A DNA stretch of 64,000 bases from Membranipora membranacea (Eukaryota > Bryozoa > Gymnolaemata > Cheilostomatida > Membraniporidae), in assembly GCA_914767715.1 (NCBI GenBank), contig OU612068.1, positions 27,092,001 to 27,156,000 of the forward strand, in the 5' to 3' direction. Positions 919 to 63,226 of this stretch are shown one piece after another. The first letter of the stretch is position 1, and each line of letters begins with the position of its first letter. Both the position numbers and the translations under genes were made by a program. The notes under the pieces were generated by a model. That model was not told the origin of the DNA. It did not search any database and saw nothing but the letters and a program-made list of their open reading frames with translations.

Positions 919-3900
919 TCTCACCTTTCTCACCTAGTCCGCCGTGTTCCGGGATGGGTGGCGGTCCTGCAGGGCACCAAGTTCTATCAGAGAATGCCAT
1001 CTGATTCTATCATCAACATCTTCATCTGAGAGGCCCCATCTCAGCATCTCATCTTTCGCTGTATCCATCCATCTTTTCTTTGGCCTCCCTCTCTTTCTCT
1101 TTCCCTGTATTCTCATCTCAGCCACCATTCTAATATCTTCCTCCCTATCTCTCCTGCGCACATGTCCATACCATTGAAGACGTCTCCTCCTCATATCTAT
1201 TGCAATCGCTTCTATTTTGGCCTCCTCCCTTATACTCTTGTTTTATGCTCTTTCCAGTCTATATTATAAATGTGTCGGAGCATCCTCACCTCAGTTGCAC
1301 TTATCTTGTCTTTGAGTCAGTGGTTAGATCTCATTTCCATATATCAGTGTAGGTTTTATTGGGGTCTTGTACAACAGAACCTTGAGCTTGGTGGGAATTT
1401 TCTTATCGCAAAGCACTCCTGTCAGCTCTCTCCGTCTATTCCATGTCTTCTCTATCCGCTTTGCAATTTCTATTCCGCATCCTCCCTCTTGATCTATTGT
1501 GGTTCCCAGGTATTTGAATGTTGATACCTGCGGCAGATCAGTTGAACCTTCTCCATCATACTTCTTCATTTCTATCCTTTGTAAGTTGCCTGCTGGCGGT
1601 AGATGTTCTGTCTTTGGCCTACTTACTTTTAATCCTGCATCTTCTAAACACCCCCTCCAGTTCTCCAGTCTCTCTTCCATCCTCTCCCTAGCTTCATCGC
1701 AAAGAACAAGGTCTTCAGCAAACAGCATTGCCCACGGCGTGTCCTCCTGAATCTCCTCGGTGATGACATCCAAGGTCAATATGAAAAGGAAAGGGCTAAG
1801 TGCAGATCCTTGATGTAAACCTACTTCTATCTCAATCTCATCTGTTTCACCTACACTTGTCACAACTGATGTTTTGCAGTCCTTGTACATGTCTTTGATT
1901 GCACTCACATATGTCTCAGGAACTCCACGCTTCCTCAGACAGTACCAGATTAGGTCTCTAGGTACTGTATCATAAGCCTTCTCTAGGTCGACAAAAACCA
2001 TATGTAAGTCCTTTTGATGTTCCCTCATCTTTTCCTGGAGTACTCTCAAGCAAAACATGGGCTGTGTTGTTGACTTCCCTTTCTGGAAGCCATACTGCTT
2101 GCCACTGATCTTACTCATTTCTCTTATCCTCGCCTCTATCACTCGCTCCCAGAGCTTTAGACAGTGACAGGAGTTTTATCCCTCTATAGTTTGAACAGTT
2201 TAGAGGATCTCCCTTTTGCTTATACAAAGGTGTGATTTTGCTTCTTCTCCATTCTGGTGGTTTCCCATTTTCCTGTACATCTTGTAGTACAGCTGTCATC
2301 CAGGTCAAACTGTCTGCCCAAGACTCTTCACTACCTCTATTGGGAATTCATCTGGTCCAGTTGCCTTTCTATTTTTCATCTTCTCTAACTGTATTTTGAC
2401 TTCGGATTTGCTTATCAGTCTTTCCTTTGATTTTTGGTGTTGAGCAACTTGTCAAAATATTCTCTCCATCTCATCTTAATATCATCATCTCCACACAAGA
2501 TTTTGCCCTCTCTATCCTTCACAAAGATCATCCTGTCTATGTCTTGAGACCTCCTTTTTCTGGTTTTGGCAAGCTTATAGAGATTCTTTGGTCCATTTTC
2601 TTTGAGATCTTCATACGGTTTTATATACCCCTTTTCTTTTGCTATTGCCACTTTCTCCTTTGTTGGTTTATTCTTTTCTCTATAGTCTCTTTCTTTGGCT
2701 TCAGCCTCCTCTGGATCCATCTCCAATCTTTCCTTCGCTCTCTGCCACTCCTTAAAAGCATCACGTTTCTGTCCTACTGCTTCCTGTACCTCTGAATTCC
2801 AAAACCAAGACTCTTTCTCTATGTATTTCCCTCCGGATGTTTCACCGAGTTCCTCTTTTGCTAGTTCAACTGCCTTCTGGTACGTATTTCCCCATGTCCA
2901 TTCCCTTGTCTCCTTACTCTCGATGTATTCAGTTAATTTTTCTATATACTCCTGCCCTTCTTCCTTTAGCTTCCACCACTTAGTCCTAGCCTTTTTTTTC
3001 CTTCGCCACTCTCGCTTTCTCTTCACTGTAAGGTCCGCTATGAGAAGCCTATGCTGTGGTGCTATAGACTCTCCTGGCACTACCTCGCAGTTCGACACTA
3101 CTCCTAGGTGGTGTCTTCTAATCGCTATATAGTCTATGACTGACCTATTTCCTCCACTCTTGAATGTTATCAGATGCTCTTCCTTCTTTTCAAGGAAAGT
3201 GTTTATGAGTGCCAAGTCGTATGTTTGTGCCATCTCCAACACTCTCTCTCCCTCCTCATTTCTCCTTCCTATCGTCCATCCTCCATGCCATCTCTCTACT
3301 CACTCTCTATCCCTTCCAACATGTCCATTCAAGTCTCCCGCCACTATCAACTCTTCTCCTTCTGGGATTCCAGCCAAGATGCCAAATCTTTCTCCTCCTG
3401 ACAGCATCCTTGCTGGGGGGCATACACTGATATGATGTTGATGCTCATTCCAGGTATTACCAATTTCATATATACTATGCGATCTGGCTTCCTTTCTACT
3501 GCTATTACTTAATCCTGCCAATATTCACTGAGACAAGTCCCAACTCCATTTCTTGCTTTCTTCCCTCCGCAATAGTATAACTTGTAGCCATCACCAAGAG
3601 CCCTGGCTTTTCCGCCAGATTGACCCTCAGTCCATCTAAATTCCTGTAGGCATAGTATGTCGATCTTCCTGGCTAACATAACCGCAGCAGCTTCTCTGCT
3701 TTTTCTAGTAAGAGTACCAATATTTATCGTGGCCATTCTGAGTTTACAGTATCGCCCCTCTCGTTTTCTAATCACAGCGTCGGGGCGATGGTGGTTCCGC
3801 TGCGAAGTGCCACATAAGGGTGGCGTCCTAGCATCGGTTGAAAACGTTGATTGTCCCTGCATGTTTTCTGTGAAGCGGGGGGGATTTCACCAACCGGATG

Positions 3901-3993
3901 CCCTTCCTGACGTTGAACCCTCTGTCTTTACCCGGGCTTGGGACCGGCTGTCAGAATCACTGGCTTGTGAAACCTCCAGGCGACTATGATTGC
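919..3993 (-). mobile_element. RTE-like non-LTR retrotransposon (LINE), degenerate but near full length
   Basis: A LINE of about 3.07 kb lies on the minus strand between two copies of a 16-bp target-site duplication. Reading right to left: an AP-type endonuclease N-terminus (3509-3862, with motifs NIGTLTRKS and DILCLQEFRWT), more endonuclease (3300-3521, then 2415-3242 with RSVIDYIAIRR), reverse transcriptase (2111-2308 with NYRGIKLLS; 1324-2142 with DLEKAYDTVPRDLI and LHQGSALSPFLF), and a basic C-terminal tail (934-1194, with QWYGHVRRR and KRGRPKKRW). At least four frameshifts separate these pieces. The catalytic FADD box reads FAED (1711-1722), so the enzyme should be dead. The 3' end at about 919-935 is a short ggtgagaaa-type repeat rather than poly(A), which fits the RTE clade. 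The length suits an RTE element; the exact clade is inferred. Confidence 0.85.
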
Positions 3994-4009
3994 GTAAACT
4001 AGCCATTAT
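3994..4009. repeat. Target-site duplication of the RTE-like LINE (right copy)
   Basis: Exact copy of the 16-mer at 903-918, next to the LINE 5' end. Confidence 0.85.
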
Positions 4010-53146: not shown

Positions 53147-53210
53147 TGAATCAGATTCTTCTCTTAGAATGGAAATAGTATCATAGCGTTATACGGTTAG
53201 GATACTAAAC
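53147..53210. repeat. Dispersed repeat R, left part of interrupted copy
   Basis: Reverse complement of the right end of the copy at 34970-35257. Continues at 63003 on the other side of the LTR retroelement. Confidence 0.8.
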
Positions 53211-53536
53211 TGTAAGGGTCTGCTGTCCTTACAAGTTGTGGTGGGTATTTGTGATCATTTAGAAGTACTACGCTACTTCGTTGCAACTTATTAACTGGTT
53301 TATTTGATAGTAAAACTTATATATATATATGAGACATAAAATATCTAAACCAATAGTAATACAGCAGTTCATATGATGGTAACAAAATGTAATCAGGATA
53401 CAGCGAGCAAATGAATATTCAATCAATTAATTTCGATGACAGCACAATCAGTCATGAATCTTGGCACATTCTTAACATGATGACATTAATGATGATGATA
53501 TGAATTTGTCTATTCACATCTGATGTCATCCTTACA
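53211..53536 (-). repeat. 3' LTR of the retroelement
   Basis: Starts tgtaagg and ends ccttaca. Identical by eye to 62677-63002. Confidence 0.93.
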
Positions 53537-53550
53537 CCTCCCCTCTCAGG
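53537..53550 (-). promoter_or_regulatory. Polypurine tract
   Basis: On the minus strand a purine run (gagaggggagg) directly precedes the 3' LTR, as needed to prime plus-strand DNA synthesis. Confidence 0.8.
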
Positions 53551-55372
53551 CGAAGCCGATAGAGTTTGTTGTATCTTGTCGTAATGTTAGCTTCTGGAAT
53601 TTGTTGAGTAGTTGGTAGTCGATGATGTAGTTGGTGAAGATCTATTGTGGTCAGGTAAGGGGGGGGGGAGTTTTGGTTCTTGTAGGTTTATCTCTCAGCT
53701 TAGATTGTTCTTTGTTGTTGTTTGGTGTTGTTGGGGATTTCTTGGTATGTTGGTTGTTGATGAGGCTGCTGTTTGTTGATGTGGTGTTGTTGATTCTTAA
53801 TCAGCCTTCAGTGTTCATCTCTGGTGCATTCTGTTGATGTATCAGGAGTTGTCCTCTTTTACTGTAGGAGAACATGACTTGTCTTAGTTGTGTAATGAAG
53901 GTTATTAGGTTGGGTAGACTTCATTGTTTGTGCCATACTTCACTAAAATTGTACTGCCTTTTCAACTCAGGGTTTAACGCTTCCGCTGTGTATACTGGAT
54001 TACTTTCGGTTACCATCATAGGGATCAGTCGCACTAGTATGGTTTTACTCAAGAAAGTCCGAAGGACTATTCTGTCTCTGAAAGTAATAAAATGTATTCA
54101 TTAAAAATATTAATCAGCTAATCTACATGTAAATGTTCAATGTAAAGAATATTATGTTATGCATTGGTTGTATCCGATATAAAGATATTAAAATTTTATA
54201 GATCATTTAATTATGAAGGTGATTCACGCCACTAAATACATGAGGAATGCAATTTCTTTTTGTTTTTATGGTTGTCTATCAATAGAATGTATCCCTCCCC
54301 TCTCAAGTTTCAATGTCAATATGTCATATCTTTAAACTTAACTTAAGGGTTATTATTCCACTCCATCTCTTCTCCGATCCAGTCATACTAGAGGGTTTCA
54401 TCACTCAGACCATCCATTACAATGTCCTTCACATTCCACTACCATGCCGATTCATCCTTCACTCCATCGGAAATCCAGGTGCTGAATGCACACAGGTACA
54501 GCCCATCTTGACAATCAAGAGCTGTGACACACACCAGAGATGGAAGTCTTCGGCAGACCAGTAGTAGGAGGCGCCAAACTCCTCTGGCTTCTTTATCCTA
54601 TATACGACCATCTCTTTGAACTCGGTGAGGTCAGAAGAAAGATTCCAGATCCTAGCAGCACTGTTTTCCATGTCCACAGTGTGCGATGTCTCCATCCAAG
54701 CAATTTTCCAGTCCAGGTCCCGCCATACCACTCGTCCATAGAGTGTGAAGATTCCAAATCCAGGCAGCACTGTTTTCCATGTCCACAGTGTGCGATGTCT
54801 CCATCCAAGCAATTTTCCAGTCCAGGTCCCGCCATACCACTCGTCCATAGAGTGTGAAGATTCCAAATCCAGGCAGCACTGTTTTCCATGTCCACAGTGT
54901 GCAATGTTTCCATCCAAGCAACTTTCCAGTCCAGGATACGCCATACCACTCCTCCATAGAGCATCAAGACTCCAGATCCACAGAAGAGAGACTGCTCAAT
55001 CCAAGTGGCCAGCCAAAAGAGTGCACAACAACTCAAAACGCACTCAAAATATTCAGGTGGGACCAATTTCGTCTTAGATACCAATTCTCTTTTCCTTTAT
55101 TTTTATTTATTTTTTTTTTTTTGTAATAAGCACATGTGATAATTTTGGATATTAATTGTGGGTAATAATTTTTTTTTTTTTTTTTTTTTTTTTTTTGCAC
55201 AATTAGATGTCAATTGAATAACACATCGTTCAGCCAGACATCACCAATGTTATTGTATATGCCCATGCCATAGCAATGAAGCAGTTAGTTTATAGCGTTT
55301 ATTATTAAGTTAGATACATTTATAAATTGAATAATAATTGCATAAGCTGTCATAAGTGTATGTGCGAAGGGA
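53551..55372 (-). other. Long 3' segment between pol and polypurine tract
   Basis: About 1.8 kb without a recognised gene, in the place where other retroelements keep env. It holds a 109-bp tandem repeat (54641-54980), an A-tract on the minus strand (55163-55196) and overlapping open frames of 161-163 codons (54459-54944, 54593-55084). Because 109 is not a multiple of three, successive repeats are read in rotating frames, which argues against one coherent protein. A captured host fragment is possible. Confidence 0.6.
54641..54980. repeat. 109-bp tandem repeat, about three copies
   Basis: Units begin at 54655, 54764 and 54873 (gcagcactgttttccatgtc). The first two are identical; the third differs at several positions. 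Confidence 0.9.
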
Positions 55373-58300
55373 TTAGTTATTCCTAGCTCGTAGATTATAG
55401 CCATGGGAACTTGTCTTAGTAGAGTCATCCTGAGCTGGTGTAGCGGAGTTAGAAGCCGGAACGGCCACAGCAGGATTAGTTGCTGGTTTCCTCTTTACAG
55501 ATACATAGCTGGCAGGAGTAAAGTCGGATGTCAAAGGTGCCTTAGCTTTCTTCAAACGTACCAGGTGGGTAGTGAACTGAGTTCCCACTGGCAAACCAGT
55601 TGTGCCTAGTGCCCTAACATCAGCATTTAACCCATTCAACATAACAATCAGATAAGGCCCTTGATATGAAGAAGAAAATTTCTTCACATTGCCAACTGCC
55701 ACATGGGGAACCTTGACGTAAACCACATCCCCAACCTTATATTGATGTCCGTTAGTATTAAGATCATGGTAGTATTTATAGTTAGTTTGCGCACATTCCA
55801 AGTTATCCCTTGCCAATGCCCATGCAACCTTCAAGGAATCATGCATTTCCTCAACGGGGTTTTTGTTTTCATTATAGCACACACGATCTACAACAGGTAC
55901 AGCCAGCTCGAAGGGAATAGTTATTTCCCTTCCGCAACTCAGATACGTTGGTGTAAAGCCTGTTGAAGCATTCTCAGTGTTATTGTAGCTATGAGCAACA
56001 TATTTGGAAAGCATATCCCAATTAGTCTGCGCCTTATCAATCATTGTAGCCATCAGATTGGAGAAACTCTGAAAAGAGCGCTCCACCTGCCCGTTAGTGC
56101 TTGCCATATAGGGAGTGCAGGTGCGCTTGTCGATGTTTAAAGTCTCTGCCAGTTTGTTCATTAGACCAGAAACAAATTCAGCCGCATTGTCCGAGACCAA
56201 TATATTTGGACATCCATGAGGAAGTATCAAATACTCGATCATGCAATCAGCCACAGTCTCCATTTTGTGATCAGAAATTGGCCTCATGATTACAAATTTG
56301 GAAAAAGAGCACTGTAATCCTAAAATATACTTACTCCCTCTCTCTGTTAAAGGCAACGGACCAAGTATGTCAAAATGTACCCTGGCGAATGGTTTGTCCT
56401 CCGTTTCTAATGGTTGTAGAGGAAAGATAGGGTTGAAAGGGCCCCTTTTCCTCTGATTGCACTGGATACAAGCAGCTATATATTCCGCAACATCCTTACT
56501 CATCCCAAGCCAATAATATTTCCTACTTAGTCTTTTGTATAAACGATTTCTCCCCACATGGCACCCAAATAATGAATTATGATACACATTCAACAAGTCA
56601 AATTTCATTATTTCAGGGACACATAGTAAGGGTCTGAGAGCATCCAGCGGATTATAATATAATACGCCATCTTGCCTAACGTAATAGCGTTTCTGAGCTA
56701 AGATATGCCTGTGCTCTACTGGAGAAAGATTGATTGGATTTGCACCGTCTGTCAGCAACTCAATAATCTGTTTGAGGAATGGATCTGTAATTTGCTGTTC
56801 ACGAAATTGCAGCAAATCATCCTTACTACTAGCTAAGCACTCAGCAGTTAGCCCTATGACACATGAATCAGCTACTTCTATTCTAGAGAGAGCATCAGCC
56901 ACATAATTTTCCTTGCCAGGTTTGTAAATCACTCTCAAATTATACTCCTGAAGTTTTAATGAAAACTTGGCCAGTCTCGAGTTCTTGTGGTCGCATGTTA
57001 ACAACCAACGCAGAGGTGAATGATCAGTTGTGACAATGGTTTCGTGTCCTAATATAAAATGCCTGAAGTGCTTGCAAGCTGCAACCACCGCCAACCCTTC
57101 TTTTTCATAAGTAGAATAATTTTTCTCACTTTTGTTCAATACACGACTGTAATAACCGATTGGATGTAAGCCATCCTCAAATATCTGACATAGCTGTGCA
57201 CCGATAGCAAAGTTCGATGCATCAGTGTGGATGTGAAAAGGTCTATCAAAAATCGGATAGCGTAAAACAGGATATGTTGAGAGTTTATCTTTCAAAACTC
57301 TGAAACTTTCAGAACAAGATCGCGTCCAGTCAAATGTAGCGTCACTCTTAGTCAATTCCAACAATGGTTTTGCCAAATCTGAGAATTTGTGAATATATGT
57401 CCGATAATAGGACATAGCTCCTAGGGCGCGCTTGAGTTGGGTTATATCAGTTGGTTCTGGATAACGGTTGATTTTGTCAACCAGACCGGGTGCAGGCTTG
57501 CACCCAAATTCATTGTACACATTTCCCAAATATTGCACCTCAGATCTAGCCCATTTTGATTTTGCAGGATTGATCTTTACGCCATGTTTGATCAGCCTAT
57601 CAAGAACTTGCCCAACTCTATGCATGTGGTTGTCTAAATTCCTATCACTAAATATTACAATGTCATCAAGAAAACATTGACAGGTCACCCACTGAAGGTT
57701 TGATAAAATCACGGACATTGCTCTCTGAAAAATAATACTGGAATTACAAAAGCCAAAAGGTACTCTCAAATAACGATACGTACCTTTATGAGTGACAAAT
57801 GTCGATCGCTCCCTATCCTCAGGATTTTCCATTTTCAAATTCCAAAATGCCTTAATGAGATCAATAGTGGTAAACAATCCACTCTGACCGGCTAACATCT
57901 CCTTGATACTATCTGGGTGAGGTAATGGGAATGACAGGGTATGTGTTACGGCATTGACCTTTCTATAATCTTGCACAATTCTCAAATCAGTAGTCCCAGC
58001 CTTTTTAACAAGCAAACAAGGCGATGCCCAAACACTGGAATTAGGTGCCTTTTCAATGATATTATGTTTCAGCATTTTGTCAATTTCCTTATTCAGAGCA
58101 TCTTTATAAGCTACAGGCACTCTATAAGGTTGGGATCTAACAGGTCTAGCATCACCAGTATCACAAACCCGTCCAGTCAATCCTTTCACCTCACCAACAT
58201 CATACTTGTGAAAGGCGAACACAGACTTTTTAGTACCTAGAAAAGAAAGAAAACGCTTGCGTTCATGTGTGTTCAACGGTGATTTAGCTAAATCAATTCT

Positions 58301-61300
58301 AGAAATTGGATCCGCAGTCTCTGATTTATTGTCTTCTTTGACTTTGCCATCCAATGTTTCATTCAGATTACTATCCTTTATTTGTACAGATTGCTGTTGA
58401 GTAACTGTGCCGAGTGGTGTGCCTTGATACACTTTGATATAATTGTCGGACACATTTATTACTCTACATCTGATCATTCCATCAGCTGGATTCATAGTTT
58501 TGGCAAACATAAGACCACCATGTACAAAGGTAGGTTCATACATAAGCTGTACTTTAGACTGCGGTCCTTTAAAACAAATCTTATTATCAGACTTTGGAGG
58601 GAATATAACATCCCTGTCCGCAAACACATTGCAGTACTCACGGTTTTCCACAGCATCCATTGATAAATCATCACCAGAAGTGACCTGTCCAGACTTCCTT
58701 TCCTCACCATTGAATGGCGTGAGGTGTAACTTACCAGTGCTATAATCTAGCACAAGCTTCCCACAGTGGCGCAAATTATCAGCACCAAGTATAATAGGAT
58801 ATTTACATTCCCCAATCACTAAAAATCTGGCCCTGATTGGGCTCAACCCTGGATATGAAACAATCAAATACACCTCCCCAATTCCTTTAACCACACTACC
58901 CGAAACTGATCTTATGGATCTCATGGTACTTGTTATCCTGCACTGAATCATTAAGACTTTGCACATTTTCATTGTGATTGTCGATAGTTGTGCACCAGTG
59001 TCAAACAAGCATTGGTACAAGCCGTTGTCAATATTTAATTGAATGATCGATTCATGACGTATCCGTTGAAAATTGCATAACATTTCACCAACTGATACTT
59101 TCCTAGCTGCCCTGGCTTTCGCCCGCCGTACAGCTGCCAATGTGACTCTAGTGTTTGTCAAGGTTTTAGGTCTTGCCCTAGGTCTTACTCTACCACTGGC
59201 AGATGAAATTTCATTTAAAACAACAACAGTTGGCTTGGGTTCTGTAATTTCTGGTTGCTCATGGGAGGGTCCAGGTTGGGGATTAGTTTGCTGTGTAACA
59301 TTGACATTGATGTTAGACTGCTCCGGTTTGTTATCTTTTCCATGATAATTTCCAAAGAAATAACGATTCAAATTATCCTTAGGATCCCCTACAAATTGTC
59401 TTGCGCCAGTACACATTCTAACTAATGTCCAACAAAGCCTGAATGTTACTAGTAAACAGCAAAAGAAAATCCATATCTGCTTCCAATCAACAACATCCAA
59501 TCCAGAAAGGAATGAAAATAAACCGTCTTTGACCACATTATGTGAAAAGACTTGTGATTGCCCACCCTGATATTCGTCATTAGTATTGTCTGTAATGCCT
59601 ATCAAATTCCCAAGTATCTTATGTTGATATTGCATGGCACCTGTCAAGTCATTCAATGTAAATTTTTCTCTAAATAAATGCCAATCATATAATAGTAGTT
59701 TATGTATGACAGGTTGACCAATATCGTTTCCCAAATCAGAAAAATCAAGTGCTATCGTATTCAGCTTGTCAATGCCACTGGCCCTCCTGACAGTCCCATC
59801 AACATGTGCATAGAAGAATAATTCTCCATCAATTACCATTGGAATCTCCTGATTTAATGCGCAATCAATGAGGCTTGGAGTGTCATGTAGAATGTTGTTA
59901 TGAGGGTTTAACCACATAGTCCTGTTGGTGACACCTAATGAAACAGCCATTGGAATTCTTTTCGTGCATTGTTCTGGTGAAGAGATCATCTCATAGTGGT
60001 CTACTGGCTGACAAGGATAGATGGTTATGAAATCATGTAGTTTCTGTGCATAAATGTATGAATTATTCAACAGATGTCTCGCAGCCAGAATAGGATGTTC
60101 ATCAAGTGATACAAGTAAAAGATCAGCCATCTTCATCATATTTTGACAAGTTAGCCTAAATGTCGTGTGAAACATCTGGTTAAAATTCTGTGAAACATGT
60201 ATTTCAATTGCCTGTAGTCTAGAATTCAATTCAGTCGCTAAAACAGTCCCCTCTATCTGTCGTTTCTCCCTTGTCTTAGTCAGGTCACCAACTTTAACTG
60301 CAACACCCTGGTCAGTTATGTCTACAAACCCGCCACAGTCCTCGTTTTGCTGAATACGCTTTGGGTTTGCAAAAGTCAAGGCCAATTCCCCGTCATTTGA
60401 TAGCCAAGTCCTGTCCTGTAGCTTTCCTTGATAGAATATATGCGGTAAGTAGAGACATTTTTCTTTTTCATTTTGTGTCCACAACAGTCCTGATTCATCA
60501 AACAAATTACAAAAACCTGAATGGTAGTCACAGTGAGCTGTGCTACCCACAGGACTCTGCATGTCCTCATCTTTACCATGTCTGATAAATACCACAGATT
60601 CATAGAGAAAAGCATTCTTTGATGAAAATTCATAATCAGTGCAGCACTTAAATCCTGTGTGATACTCAAAATCAGTTGTAATTTGAGTTTGGTATATTCC
60701 ACCTATTTCAGTCATGTCACCAAAAGGTGCCCTTTTAAATTGTACCATGTTTCTGCAAGTTTCCATTGTCACAAGTTCATTTGTGTGTGTAGTTGTCCTA
60801 TTTCTATTCTCACCAAAAAATCCTGCATGTGTTGTGATGTCAGTTCTGATTATTTTACAGTGATGTGCCTTGGATTTATATTGAATCAGATTTGGTTTGA
60901 ACAAAGTCACATCCTGGTCTATTGGTGCATGCAAGTCCATGTGGCCACGTTTGAGATCACAACCTGATAGTTTTGGCAGTCTGAATTTAGCAACCGGATG
61001 ATCAGTTTTGCATATCATTGGTGTTGTTGTATCCACATTACCGAAAAAACCTAAGAGGGTCATACAAATAGCTAAGCTGACAAAACCCAGTCCAGATGTT
61101 TGTCTCGATTTGGAAATTTTTGTTCCAGTCCTTGTTTTCTTTGACACACCCTGTGGCGTGTCACTTGAAATTTCAGTGGTCACATTACTGTCGTTATGGT
61201 CCGTGTCATCAATCATATCAATAGCACATGTGTCAAATAAACAGTTGTCAAACTCGTCATAATGCATGTTGTCTGTATTTTCAGATGGTTGATTAATATC

Positions 61301-62644
61301 TGGATCTGGAGGCTCCTGAGGGACCTGAGAATTGGCCATAGTGTGAGCACCACGACCTCCTCTGCCTCTGCCTCTACCACGTGCGCGTCCCCTAGACTGA
61401 TTATAACCTCTATTATTATTATTATGTTGACTCTGTTGATAGTATGTCTTGGGACATTCCCTTGCATAGTGGTCAGGCGCATTGCAAACAAAGCAGCGCC
61501 TTTGTCCTTGTTTGTTTTGACTAGTGTTACCGTTATACCCTCCCCGGTAATTTTGATTAGGGTTACTGTTGAATCCTCTGTTATAACTATCAAATGCATT
61601 TACGTTCAGCTGTGAAGCTTTTAGACCAGTTTCTGCCCCGCTGGCAGCCTGGTACAACTCAGTTAGAGTTTTATTGGTCAATGGCATAACTGCCTCCTTG
61701 ATGCCCATTTTTAATCCCATTCTGAAATACAGCAAAATGAATGGAGATGTCTCATCTAAATCACTTTGAGCAACAGTTTTACGAAAGCGCTCAAAATAGG
61801 TTCCCACGCTTTCATTTGACTGTTGCTGCATGTTTGCCAGTTCCATGGCAGCCTGCTCGCCCCCTTTACCAGCTCTGACCTTTGAGCTGAATAGCTTTCT
61901 GATTAAACTGTAACTACCTGAGGCATTCTCCCTCACTACTTCTCTTAAATAGGTAGCTGCAAGATCTTTAACATACAAGCCTAGTAACATAACATGGTGC
62001 TCCGTAGGCACGTCATTCAGCAAGCAGCATGTTTCAAATTGGGTCAGGAAAGATTCTACATCTTCATCTGACTTTGCAGTAAATTTGAGACCAAACTTTA
62101 CCCAATCTTTCTTTCCTGAGTTATTTGAATTACTGCTTGCTGAAGGATAACTCTTACCTGGGGTTGGTGTTTGTTTAACGATCAGCCGTGGCTGTGTCCT
62201 CAGGGGTGTATTGATAACTGGTGTTGTAGCCATCCGTTGCATTGCTGTCCTTGATCTTTCATTTGCCATTTTTGTCATCATCTGTTTTCCCATCTCATCC
62301 ATTTGCTTTGTCATCTGCTCAGTGAGCTGTTTCATTAGCTGTTTTTGTTGAGCAGCAAATGTTAGTGTTAACTGCACAAGCTCCTCCTTCCTCGCTTCCT
62401 CCTGGGCCTGCATATCCTGCCTGATAACTTCCATGTCATCATACATTTGTTGAAGAGCCTCGTCTACTGGCTCCTCTTCCTCCTCCTCGAGGTTGCGGTC
62501 GGCCTCCTCGCCACCGTCATATTCATTGCGGTCGACCTCCTCGCCACCGTCATTTTCGTTGCGGTCGACCTCCTCGCCACCGTCATATTCGTTGCGGTCG
62601 ACCTCCTCGCCACCGTCATTTTCGTTGAGATTTCCAGGATCCAT
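55373..62644 (-). CDS. Gag-Env-Pol polyprotein of the LTR retroelement
   Basis: One open frame of about 2,423 codons from the ATG at 62642-62644 (MDPGNLNEND). The frame stays open upstream through the primer-binding site into the LTR, but this ATG is the first outside both. Order with approximate residue numbers counted from the frame's first Met at 62752: acidic repeats 44-86, coiled coil 100-165, capsid-like 215-380, CCHC 420-433, basic RG region 453-470, glycoprotein-like 554-1115, aspartic protease 1235-1335, reverse transcriptase 1540-1720, RNase H 1835-1955, integrase 2050-2300, GPY-like tail 2363-2372. No stop or frameshift separates gag from pol. Processing by the protease and by a host furin is inferred. 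Confidence 0.9.
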   Translation of the reverse strand: MDPGNLNENDGGEEVDRNEYDGGEEVDRNENDGGEEVDRNEYDGGEEADRNLEEEEEEPVDEALQQMYDDMEVIRQDMQAQEEARKEELVQLTLTFAAQQKQLMKQLTEQMTKQMDEMGKQMMTKMANERSRTAMQRMATTPVINTPLRTQPRLIVKQTPTPGKSYPSASSNSNNSGKKDWVKFGLKFTAKSDEDVESFLTQFETCCLLNDVPTEHHVMLLGLYVKDLAATYLREVVRENASGSYSLIRKLFSSKVRAGKGGEQAAMELANMQQQSNESVGTYFERFRKTVAQSDLDETSPFILLYFRMGLKMGIKEAVMPLTNKTLTELYQAASGAETGLKASQLNVNAFDSYNRGFNSNPNQNYRGGYNGNTSQNKQGQRRCFVCNAPDHYARECPKTYYQQSQHNNNNRGYNQSRGRARGRGRGRGGRGAHTMANSQVPQEPPDPDINQPSENTDNMHYDEFDNCLFDTCAIDMIDDTDHNDSNVTTEISSDTPQGVSKKTRTGTKISKSRQTSGLGFVSLAICMTLLGFFGNVDTTTPMICKTDHPVAKFRLPKLSGCDLKRGHMDLHAPIDQDVTLFKPNLIQYKSKAHHCKIIRTDITTHAGFFGENRNRTTTHTNELVTMETCRNMVQFKRAPFGDMTEIGGIYQTQITTDFEYHTGFKCCTDYEFSSKNAFLYESVVFIRHGKDEDMQSPVGSTAHCDYHSGFCNLFDESGLLWTQNEKEKCLYLPHIFYQGKLQDRTWLSNDGELALTFANPKRIQQNEDCGGFVDITDQGVAVKVGDLTKTREKRQIEGTVLATELNSRLQAIEIHVSQNFNQMFHTTFRLTCQNMMKMADLLLVSLDEHPILAARHLLNNSYIYAQKLHDFITIYPCQPVDHYEMISSPEQCTKRIPMAVSLGVTNRTMWLNPHNNILHDTPSLIDCALNQEIPMVIDGELFFYAHVDGTVRRASGIDKLNTIALDFSDLGNDIGQPVIHKLLLYDWHLFREKFTLNDLTGAMQYQHKILGNLIGITDNTNDEYQGGQSQVFSHNVVKDGLFSFLSGLDVVDWKQIWIFFCCLLVTFRLCWTLVRMCTGARQFVGDPKDNLNRYFFGNYHGKDNKPEQSNINVNVTQQTNPQPGPSHEQPEITEPKPTVVVLNEISSASGRVRPRARPKTLTNTRVTLAAVRRAKARAARKVSVGEMLCNFQRIRHESIIQLNIDNGLYQCLFDTGAQLSTITMKMCKVLMIQCRITSTMRSIRSVSGSVVKGIGEVYLIVSYPGLSPIRARFLVIGECKYPIILGADNLRHCGKLVLDYSTGKLHLTPFNGEERKSGQVTSGDDLSMDAVENREYCNVFADRDVIFPPKSDNKICFKGPQSKVQLMYEPTFVHGGLMFAKTMNPADGMIRCRVINVSDNYIKVYQGTPLGTVTQQQSVQIKDSNLNETLDGKVKEDNKSETADPISRIDLAKSPLNTHERKRFLSFLGTKKSVFAFHKYDVGEVKGLTGRVCDTGDARPVRSQPYRVPVAYKDALNKEIDKMLKHNIIEKAPNSSVWASPCLLVKKAGTTDLRIVQDYRKVNAVTHTLSFPLPHPDSIKEMLAGQSGLFTTIDLIKAFWNLKMENPEDRERSTFVTHKGTYRYLRVPFGFCNSSIIFQRAMSVILSNLQWVTCQCFLDDIVIFSDRNLDNHMHRVGQVLDRLIKHGVKINPAKSKWARSEVQYLGNVYNEFGCKPAPGLVDKINRYPEPTDITQLKRALGAMSYYRTYIHKFSDLAKPLLELTKSDATFDWTRSCSESFRVLKDKLSTYPVLRYPIFDRPFHIHTDASNFAIGAQLCQIFEDGLHPIGYYSRVLNKSEKNYSTYEKEGLAVVAACKHFRHFILGHETIVTTDHSPLRWLLTCDHKNSRLAKFSLKLQEYNLRVIYKPGKENYVADALSRIEVADSCVIGLTAECLASSKDDLLQFREQQITDPFLKQIIELLTDGANPINLSPVEHRHILAQKRYYVRQDGVLYYNPLDALRPLLCVPEIMKFDLLNVYHNSLFGCHVGRNRLYKRLSRKYYWLGMSKDVAEYIAACIQCNQRKRGPFNPIFPLQPLETEDKPFARVHFDILGPLPLTERGSKYILGLQCSFSKFVIMRPISDHKMETVADCMIEYLILPHGCPNILVSDNAAEFVSGLMNKLAETLNIDKRTCTPYMASTNGQVERSFQSFSNLMATMIDKAQTNWDMLSKYVAHSYNNTENASTGFTPTYLSCGREITIPFELAVPVVDRVCYNENKNPVEEMHDSLKVAWALARDNLECAQTNYKYYHDLNTNGHQYKVGDVVYVKVPHVAVGNVKKFSSSYQGPYLIVMLNGLNADVRALGTTGLPVGTQFTTHLVRLKKAKAPLTSDFTPASYVSVKRKPATNPAVAVPASNSATPAQDDSTKTSSHGYNLRARNN
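55853..56605 (-). CDS. Integrase domain
   Basis: HHCC zinc finger (H2058, H2065, C2095, C2098) and a D-D-35-E core: D2128 (VHFDILGPL), D2188 (LVSDNAAEF), E2224 (NGQVERSF). Followed by a GPY/F-like segment near 2363. All catalytic residues are present. Confidence 0.9.
56888..57250 (-). CDS. RNase H domain
   Basis: Motifs IHTDASNFAIGAQL (D1844), YEKEGLAVV (E1885) and TTDHSPLRWLL (D1910), as in Ty3/Gypsy-type RNase H. Confidence 0.88.
57593..58135 (-). CDS. Reverse transcriptase domain
   Basis: Motifs LRIVQDYRKVN, TTIDLIKAFWN (D1631), LRVPFGFCNS and the catalytic FLDD (1694-1697). All Ty3/Gypsy type and intact. Confidence 0.92.
58748..59050 (-). CDS. Aspartic protease domain
   Basis: Active-site CLFDTGAQLSTI (DTGA 1251-1254) and the downstream YPIILGADNL (1318-1327). 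It follows the Env-like segment rather than the nucleocapsid. Confidence 0.88.
59408..61093 (-). CDS. Envelope glycoprotein-like segment between gag and protease
   Basis: Residues 554-1115 look like a type I viral-type glycoprotein. A hydrophobic stretch (556-571) would act as signal or anchor. An ectodomain follows with cysteines at 581, 598, 632, 666, 703, 704, 741, 748, 766, 806, 869, 914, 929 and 964. N-glycosylation sequons lie near 651, 896 and 943, a furin-type REKR site at 828-831, and a transmembrane stretch at about 1092-1108. A basic, proline-rich tail leads to the protease. The family was not identified; an origin from a negative-strand RNA virus glycoprotein is one possibility. 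No break was seen in the frame. Confidence 0.75.
61100..62644 (-). CDS. Gag region
   Basis: Acidic repeats, a glutamine- and methionine-rich coiled coil, a capsid-like helical domain (WVKFGLKFTAKSDEDVESFL, then NESVGTYFERFRK), one CCHC knuckle (C420, C423, H428, C433; CX2CX4HX4C) and an RG-rich basic stretch. Assembles particles and packages RNA, by analogy with Ty3/Gypsy Gag. Confidence 0.85.
62495..62623 (-). repeat. 33-bp coding tandem repeat in gag
   Basis: Four copies of an 11-residue unit (NDGGEEVDRNE and variants alternating NEND/NEYD) at the Gag N-terminus. Confidence 0.88.
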
Positions 62645-62656
62645 CTCAACTTTCAA

Positions 62657-62674
62657 ATCCCACTTCTGACACCA
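62657..62674 (-). promoter_or_regulatory. Primer-binding site, tRNA-Leu type
   Basis: Two bases inside the 5' LTR the minus strand reads tggtgtcagaagtgggat. This is complementary to the 3' end of animal tRNA-Leu (CAA) including its CCA, as I recall that tRNA. The tRNA identity needs a database check. Confidence 0.75.
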
Positions 62675-62676
62675 GA

Positions 62677-63002
62677 TGTAAGGGTCTGCTGTCCTTACAA
62701 GTTGTGGTGGGTATTTGTGATCATTTAGAAGTACTACGCTACTTCGTTGCAACTTATTAACTGGTTTATTTGATAGTAAAACTTATATATATATATGAGA
62801 CATAAAATATCTAAACCAATAGTAATACAGCAGTTCATATGATGGTAACAAAATGTAATCAGGATACAGCGAGCAAATGAATATTCAATCAATTAATTTC
62901 GATGACAGCACAATCAGTCATGAATCTTGGCACATTCTTAACATGATGACATTAATGATGATGATATGAATTTGTCTATTCACATCTGATGTCATCCTTA
63001 CA
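62677..63002 (-). repeat. 5' LTR of the retroelement
   Basis: 326 bases, same sequence by eye as 53211-53536, with 7-bp inverted ends (tgtaagg/ccttaca). Confidence 0.93.
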
Positions 63003-63226
63003 AAACACAGGGACCCATCTGACTGTTCTCTGATTGGCTGTCCCTAGTAGCATGAATAATTAGCCTGAGAAATTGTCTTGTTTACAAAATTGCAAACAGT
63101 AATTATACCCCATACAGTGTCGATGATTAGGGCATTTCTAGATTGCTACTAGGGACTGGCTATTTTTGCAAGCCCTTTGTTTTGCAAAAGAAAGCTAATG
63201 ATGCTATTCCAGATATGGAATTCAAT
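63003..63226. repeat. Dispersed repeat R, right part of interrupted copy
   Basis: Continues the repeat broken by the retroelement at 53210. Matches the inverse of 34970-35200. Confidence 0.85.

Follow-up and report, generated by a model that had tools for sequence, protein, structure and literature searches.

Envelope-carrying retroelements and the Membranipora element

Errantiviruses are defined by an env gene downstream of pol, production of env from a spliced subgenomic RNA and an F-type envelope, and envelope-carrying gypsy elements are, according to papers that cite a survey of them, reportedly distributed widely among metazoans; that survey (eLife 108449) drew on 289 representative elements according to PMC13172572. 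The stretch of Membranipora membranacea DNA analyzed here (the window; 64,000 nucleotides, contig OU612068.1, positions 27,092,001–27,156,000, assembly GCA_914767715.1; coordinates below are window positions) contains a complete Ty3/gypsy long terminal repeat (LTR) element on the minus strand (53211–63002) that resembles errantiviruses and the metazoan elements in combining Ty3/gypsy Pol with an envelope. Its Env segment was located not downstream of pol but between the CCHC knuckle and the protease (PR), at 61105–59297. According to the reports cited here and below, Env-F of insect errantiviruses differs in coming from a spliced message (PMC12992720), while Atlas virus of a hookworm (Belpaoviridae) encodes a 2828-residue Gag-Pol-Env in a single frame, with an Env related to an RNA-virus glycoprotein; this virus differs from the present element in being BEL/Pao, in carrying Env C-terminally after Pol and in the phlebovirus-like class II type of that Env (PMC9094657). 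Captured glycoproteins of the chuvirus kind are carried by the mosquito BEL/Pao element Anakin and by insect gypsy elements associated with Jingchuvirales glycoproteins (PMC7642597, PMC10084718), although Anakin differs in its BEL/Pao Pol (PMC7642597). These glycoproteins plausibly belong to the same Pfam family as the Env described here. Bdelloid TelKA, also a retroelement with a fusion glycoprotein of a non-segmented negative-strand RNA virus, differs in that its Env is paramyxovirus-like, of class I, and encoded as ORF3 (PMC5408684).

In the literature covered, which was partial and left the metazoan survey outside, no description was found of an Env, of Monjiviricetes type, between Gag and protease in a Ty3/gypsy element. 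A preliminary description of the locus had regarded its arrangement as unusual both for the middle position of Env and for the presence of Env in one frame with Gag and Pol; the first point stands whereas the second has a precedent in Atlas virus. Provisionally, the new points are gene order and type of Env, not the one-frame Env.

The reading we favor, with a probability of roughly 0.6, is that of a recently mobile env-carrying Ty3/gypsy element with the order gag-env-PR-reverse transcriptase-RNase H-integrase (RT, RH and IN, respectively), in which Env would be made within a polyprotein. The minus-strand frame was open from 62752 to a TAA at 55373–55375, with a Met at 62644, and the part from Met to TAA (55373–62644 in the list of open reading frames and their translations) encodes Gag, Env, PR, RT, RH and IN. 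In a Pfam search of the polyprotein, read in four pieces, matches appeared in the order Retrotrans_gag, zf-CCHC, PF24664, aspartic protease, RVT_1, RNase H (two models), Integrase_H2C2 and rve. The single-frame order claimed in the preliminary description was thus borne out by the open frame and the Pfam order, and is not due to chance, being shared by four insertions with identical Env (see below). On the minus strand, the Gag capsid region (PF03732 Retrotrans_gag, 26.4 bits, cut-off 24.1) was at 61709–61972, the CCHC zinc knuckle (PF00098, 22.4 bits, cut-off 20.8) at 61448–61498, the aspartic protease with LFDTGA at 58769–59041 (PF13975 gag-asp_proteas at 23.4 bits, below the cut-off of 28.2), RT (PF00078) at 57524–58009, RH at 56942–57328 and IN (H2C2 and rve) at 56108–56620.

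Assignment to Ty3/gypsy was made because of domain order, LTR features and an RT nearest that of Ty3. Thus, the solved structures closest to RT were Ty3 entries (E 1.2e-33 and 8.7e-33), followed by 8r0s (1.9e-24), presumably a pararetrovirus, and Pr125Pol (9.6e-17), which we take to be that of a foamy virus, and Ty3 was again nearest to the integrase-side piece. The PR-RT-RH-IN order, TG...CA LTRs, a target duplication in the 4–6 bp range and an RT nearer Ty3 than retroviral RTs are those of Metaviridae; the gag-pol-env order and retroviral RT of Retroviridae were not seen. As regards Belpaoviridae, the RT was nearest Ty3 and lay among gypsy-type proteins, in a tree that held no BEL/Pao reference.

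The envelope segment

Env, the middle segment of the frame, matched Pfam Monjiviricetes_fusion PF24664 (36.3 bits against a cut-off of 27), an outcome of the kind of profile search for viral fusion glycoproteins that the preliminary description had proposed. At E<=1, Env had no other match in Pfam, no F-type envelope being recognized, and five of eight members of the env set matched PF24664 at E<=0.01. On this profile evidence, Env is a homologue of viral fusion glycoproteins. No match was found among viral contigs or in PHROGs.

The other features expected of a glycoprotein in the preliminary description were also seen on the minus strand. A signal-like hydrophobic stretch, LGFVSLAICMTLLGFFGNV, lies at 61034–61090 and is followed by the ectodomain at 59486–61021, in which PF24664 covers env residues 64–416, and by a membrane anchor at 59408–59485, assigned like the signal from hydrophobicity and ending in basic residues. 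Between signal and anchor are 14 cysteines; the segment also holds three sequons and a furin-type motif, REKR, at 60260–60271. The preliminary description is supported as to a glycoprotein but not as to its start at residue 554, the signal being at polyprotein residues ~519–537. Exactly two hydrophobic segments were present in Env, one at each end, and none above the same threshold in the Gag, PR-RT and RH-IN pieces; basic residues precede the signal-like stretch as well as following the anchor.

With Env as the sole query, five relatives were found in the protein database, and a profile added two. All 14 Env cysteines are kept in P0005, the only relative that spans all of them, while P0006–P0008 keep those that they cover, save where the beginning of P0006 is misaligned, and one is missing from P0011, a partial copy. 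In a 15-row alignment, C154, C155, C192, C199, C217, C320 and C365 were at least 90% conserved and the other seven were not. The counterparts of REKR are RSTR, RNRR and RGKR in P0005–P0007, respectively, and RxKR was absent at this position from all eight distant env pieces scanned from the same genome; by this comparison the furin-type site belongs to the subclade of the window element. Both hydrophobic segments were noted in seven of the eight distant pieces (with a third between them in L013 and L019), and in seven of eight the signal counterpart precedes P(M/V/L)(I/V)C, L010 being cut inside the signal. The conservation of the PMIC start after a hydrophobic stretch of variable sequence is typical of signal-peptide cleavage, as far as can be judged from an alignment.

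Copies and relatives

The element was found to be larger than the extent of 55373–62644 originally reported, being bounded on the minus strand by a 3' LTR at 53211–53536 and a 5' LTR at 62677–63002 (326 bp, TG...CA ends, identical at 326/326 positions) and by AAAC target-site duplications at 53207–53210 (3' side) and 63003–63006 (5' side). A genome search with Env gave at least 79 matching pieces, a number that is not a count of copies. Among these, four insertions with 100% identical Env in the 2469-codon open frame were recognized, that of the window and three others, on C5, C7 and C8 respectively, and these are separate insertions because their 4-bp duplications differ (AAAC, TAAA, CTTC and TCAC). 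Over 3001-base pieces the C5, C7 and C8 copies differed from the window copy by 3, 2 and 7 bases, respectively, and their six LTRs differed from the window LTR by 0–1 mismatches and 0–2 gap positions. The family of the window element, to judge from these near-identities, has moved very recently.

In a second family, of 5.2 kb (L001–L004 and L033–L035), the N-terminal part of Gag remains, together with Env to residue ~510 and the 3' end; the remainder of Gag, the anchor and almost all of Pol are missing. Both deletion joints were common to all seven copies read, and four of these (L001, L003, L033 and L034) have open frames of 1018–1071 codons; the anchorless ectodomain could give a secreted Env. 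The possibility that these elements are copies of spliced RNA was rejected, since the same joints occur in 7/7 copies, the Env/IN joint is at microhomology and no GT-AG was present. From their joints they are best described as a deletion family of single origin. Ratios of nonsynonymous to synonymous substitution (dN/dS) in Env were 0.28–0.41 between the window and eight short-family copies (the seven read and L036, which was assigned only by an Env ending at residue 510). Among short copies, the ratios were 0.65–1.57 for the 21 pairs without L004 and 0.31–0.68 for the seven pairs with L004 (222–294 codons). These values are taken to mean that Env has been under constraint in the autonomous lineage and under little in the short family, a reading that the L004 pairs fit less cleanly.

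Repetition of the gene order in related elements, which the preliminary description had asked about, was evident from more distant loci of the same genome. Of 22 Env matches with less than 40% identity, 19 were fetched (L005–L023, omitting three stop-containing matches on C7). Env preceded RT, with both on one strand, in 12 of these and followed it in none, the remaining seven stretches having no RT match. A CCHC motif was upstream of Env and in its open frame at 12 of the 19 loci (L005, L006, L008–L010, L013, L015, L018–L022), in another frame at L007, L014, L017 and L023, and absent at L011, L012 and L016. A DTGA or DTGS protease motif was in the open frame of Env at seven (L005, L013, L015, L017–L019 and L022), although a TGA interrupts Env itself in L005. 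The L013 frame was open across all 2933 codons fetched from Gag to integrase (3338 codons in the genome search), and that of L022 was open for 2192 fetched codons from Gag into RT (2800 in the genome search). The L013 insertion would be very recent because its 2643-bp terminal repeats are identical; a GAGG duplication flanks it and the aligned repeat is without a CA end. With its flanks (L040, L041 and L043), L013 represents another gag-env-pol family, one whose terminal repeats are unusually long.

Pfam matches at these loci were uneven. Gag pieces from nine loci were mostly below cut-offs, Retrotrans_gag passing only in L008 and zf-CCHC in L006 and L010. On nine distant env pieces, PF24664 was above its cut-off in five (L008, L015, L018, L019 and L022), below it in L010, L013 and the second half of the broken Env of L005, and without a match in L006. 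Protease models passed in L008, L022 and L005, were at the cut-off in L018, weak in L013 and without a match in L006. LTRs of L008 were not found, and this locus is at a contig end. All six loci from L016 to L021 carry gag, env and PR in that order, and no RT was found in their fetched stretches even with the RTs of L015 and L022 as queries. They are apparently non-autonomous relatives of L015 and L022 and, judging from their gene content, may depend on helpers.

In-frame junctions were also found in database proteins, namely from Gag tail to Env in P0011, from Env to PR in P0005 and from Env end through PR to RT in P0009, and P0016 (1499 residues) is an Env-Pol fusion that begins with the Env end (BLASTP E 1e-15) and continues with PR-RT-RH-IN, with a pol identity of 36%. 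A search with pol gave 80 matches listed at E<=1e-30 from 7995 candidates scored. An Env profile that included the P0016 segment found Env in none of the other 79 listed, a weak negative since Gag-Env-Pol proteins of ~2420 residues exceed the candidate length limit (1.75 x 1307). Another protein, P0044 (2145 residues), is a gypsy-type fusion in the order Gag-Pol-Env, in which a single frame encodes a Gag zinc knuckle, then Pol and, at the C-terminus, an envelope of Baculo_F type (PF12259).

Proposed expression of Env from the single frame

A single TGA separates env from pol in the same frame in L006 (CAA TGA CTA) and in L007, L008 and L009 (CAA TGA CAA TCA). Because the last three are one family, in which the RTs of L007 and L008 are nearly identical, this arrangement counts as two observations. 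Gag shared the frame of Env in L006, L008 and L009 and not in L007, and the L009 frame was broken again in RT. Known signals for readthrough include UGA-CUA and the CARYYA context, which is mostly found with UAG. The arrangement suggests that Pol could be made by readthrough after a Gag-Env product in the L006 and L007–L009 families.

Under the proposed polyprotein expression, unspliced RNA would be translated as one chain with its Gag part in the cytosol, the internal signal would open the channel of the endoplasmic reticulum (ER) and signal peptidase might cut before PMIC. The cysteine-rich ectodomain would then be lumenal, where furin would cut at REKR, and the C-terminal anchor would return the chain such that PR-RT-IN is again cytosolic and the protease there could separate the polyprotein parts. 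In the two related families, the leaky-looking TGA behind Env would mean that less Pol than Gag-Env is made. Alphavirus and flavivirus polyproteins have a similar membrane topology. This model is favored because it accounts for the conservation of frame at the junctions, for the positions of the two hydrophobic segments and for the basic residues ahead of the signal and behind the anchor.

Production of Env, or Env-Pol, from a spliced subgenomic RNA, with the in-frame position a by-product, would follow the insect elements, in which env is spliced (PMC12992720), and on rough matrices good scores were obtained for a possible donor at 62157 and for possible acceptors at 61315 and 58236. By arithmetic, an intron at 58734–58237 would preserve the frame while the 62157 donor joined to the 61315 acceptor breaks it, though translation could begin afresh in the second exon. 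A spliced Env would still read into Pol, there being no stop after Env, the conserved frames at both junctions would be without purpose, and the microhomology joints of the 5.2-kb family are not those of spliced copies; splicing is thus considered unlikely. Initiation at the internal Met of MANSQVPQ (61339), giving an Env-Pol precursor separate from Gag, is considered improbable. This Met has an A at -3 and a G at +4, is present in both P0005 and P0011 and is the predicted start of P0005, but that start is the choice of a gene caller, P0011 is open upstream of it, and in the window it lies 435 codons into the frame behind earlier ATGs. Although retroelements with captured viral glycoproteins have been described (PMC7642597), chance insertion of such a gene into one dead element, where it would be without function, is scarcely credible given four insertions, constraint on Env and the repeated order. 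The preliminary description had named two findings that would speak against its own reading of the segment, a match of the segment to something other than a membrane glycoprotein and its occurrence here alone; instead, the segment matched a glycoprotein profile and related elements repeat the order.

Several observations weigh against the polyprotein reading and the unity of the elements to which it was applied. For Env, whose fold could be of class III (gB/VSV-G-like), an AlphaFold model from eight sequences had a mean predicted local distance difference test score of 34, and neither single-sequence nor profile searches gave a convincing solved relative. No excess of RNA structure was found downstream of either TGA (z 1.12 and -0.06), the splice-like sites noted above point elsewhere, and the fixed Gag:Env:Pol ratio implied by one frame would be unusual. 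In L022 the frame stops after RT and integrase was not matched in the fetched stretch. In an RT tree of 59 rows (10 of the 12 RT-bearing loci, the window, P0014–P0016 and 45 of the 77 other pol hits), RTs of env-upstream elements fell in three places, and a single origin of the order, judged by RT alone, was rejected (one clade, approximately unbiased test p 0.0006); the comparison rows were chosen by similarity to the window RT and the test is biased to that extent. An Env tree of 14 rows had the same clusters as the RT tree except for L006. From these trees, the order would be either ancient and often lost, or spread by movement of gag-env modules between gypsy lineages, or of multiple origins.

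More tentatively, and at somewhat less than even odds, these elements may form a deep Ty3/gypsy group that replicates by way of a Gag-Env-Pol polyprotein passing two times through the ER membrane, leaving capsid and polymerase cytosolic and the glycoprotein lumenal. Families in this group would differ in how Pol is controlled, whether by a fully open frame, by a leaky TGA after Env or by dropping Pol, as in gag-env-PR elements that would depend on helpers. Should Env be produced as part of Gag-Env-Pol, an element could gain an envelope outside the retroviral gag-pol-env scheme and its spliced env message, and the polyprotein strategy of flaviviruses and alphaviruses would extend to a retroelement. 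The ratios and membrane sidedness of Gag, Env and Pol from one frame are thereby a testable question, for which the leaky-looking stops and Pol-less derivatives of related families are natural variants for comparison.

The remaining features of the element on the minus strand include a TATATA near 62795 and an AATAAA at 62770 in the 5' LTR, a TGG-type primer-binding-site-like sequence, TGGTGTCAGAAGTGGGAT, just inside this LTR at 62657–62674 (putative, and assumed by us to be of tRNA-Leu type) and a polypurine tract, GAGAGGGGAGG, that adjoins the 3' LTR at 53537–53547; primer site and purine tract are positioned as expected of a Ty3/gypsy element. The 1.8-kb 3' region between the TAA and the 3' LTR (53537–55372) contains a 109-bp unit repeated 3.1 times at 54639–54980, and its longest minus-strand open reading frames (161 and 163 residues) had no Pfam match. 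At the start of gag, a 33-bp unit repeated 4.1 times (62492–62627) encodes an acidic repeat, of which the 5.2-kb copies seem to hold more units. No tandem repeat scoring above 200 was found in positions 1–53000 of the window, and positions 2001–4000 were pyrimidine-rich, with a GC skew of -0.27 and an AT skew of -0.31.
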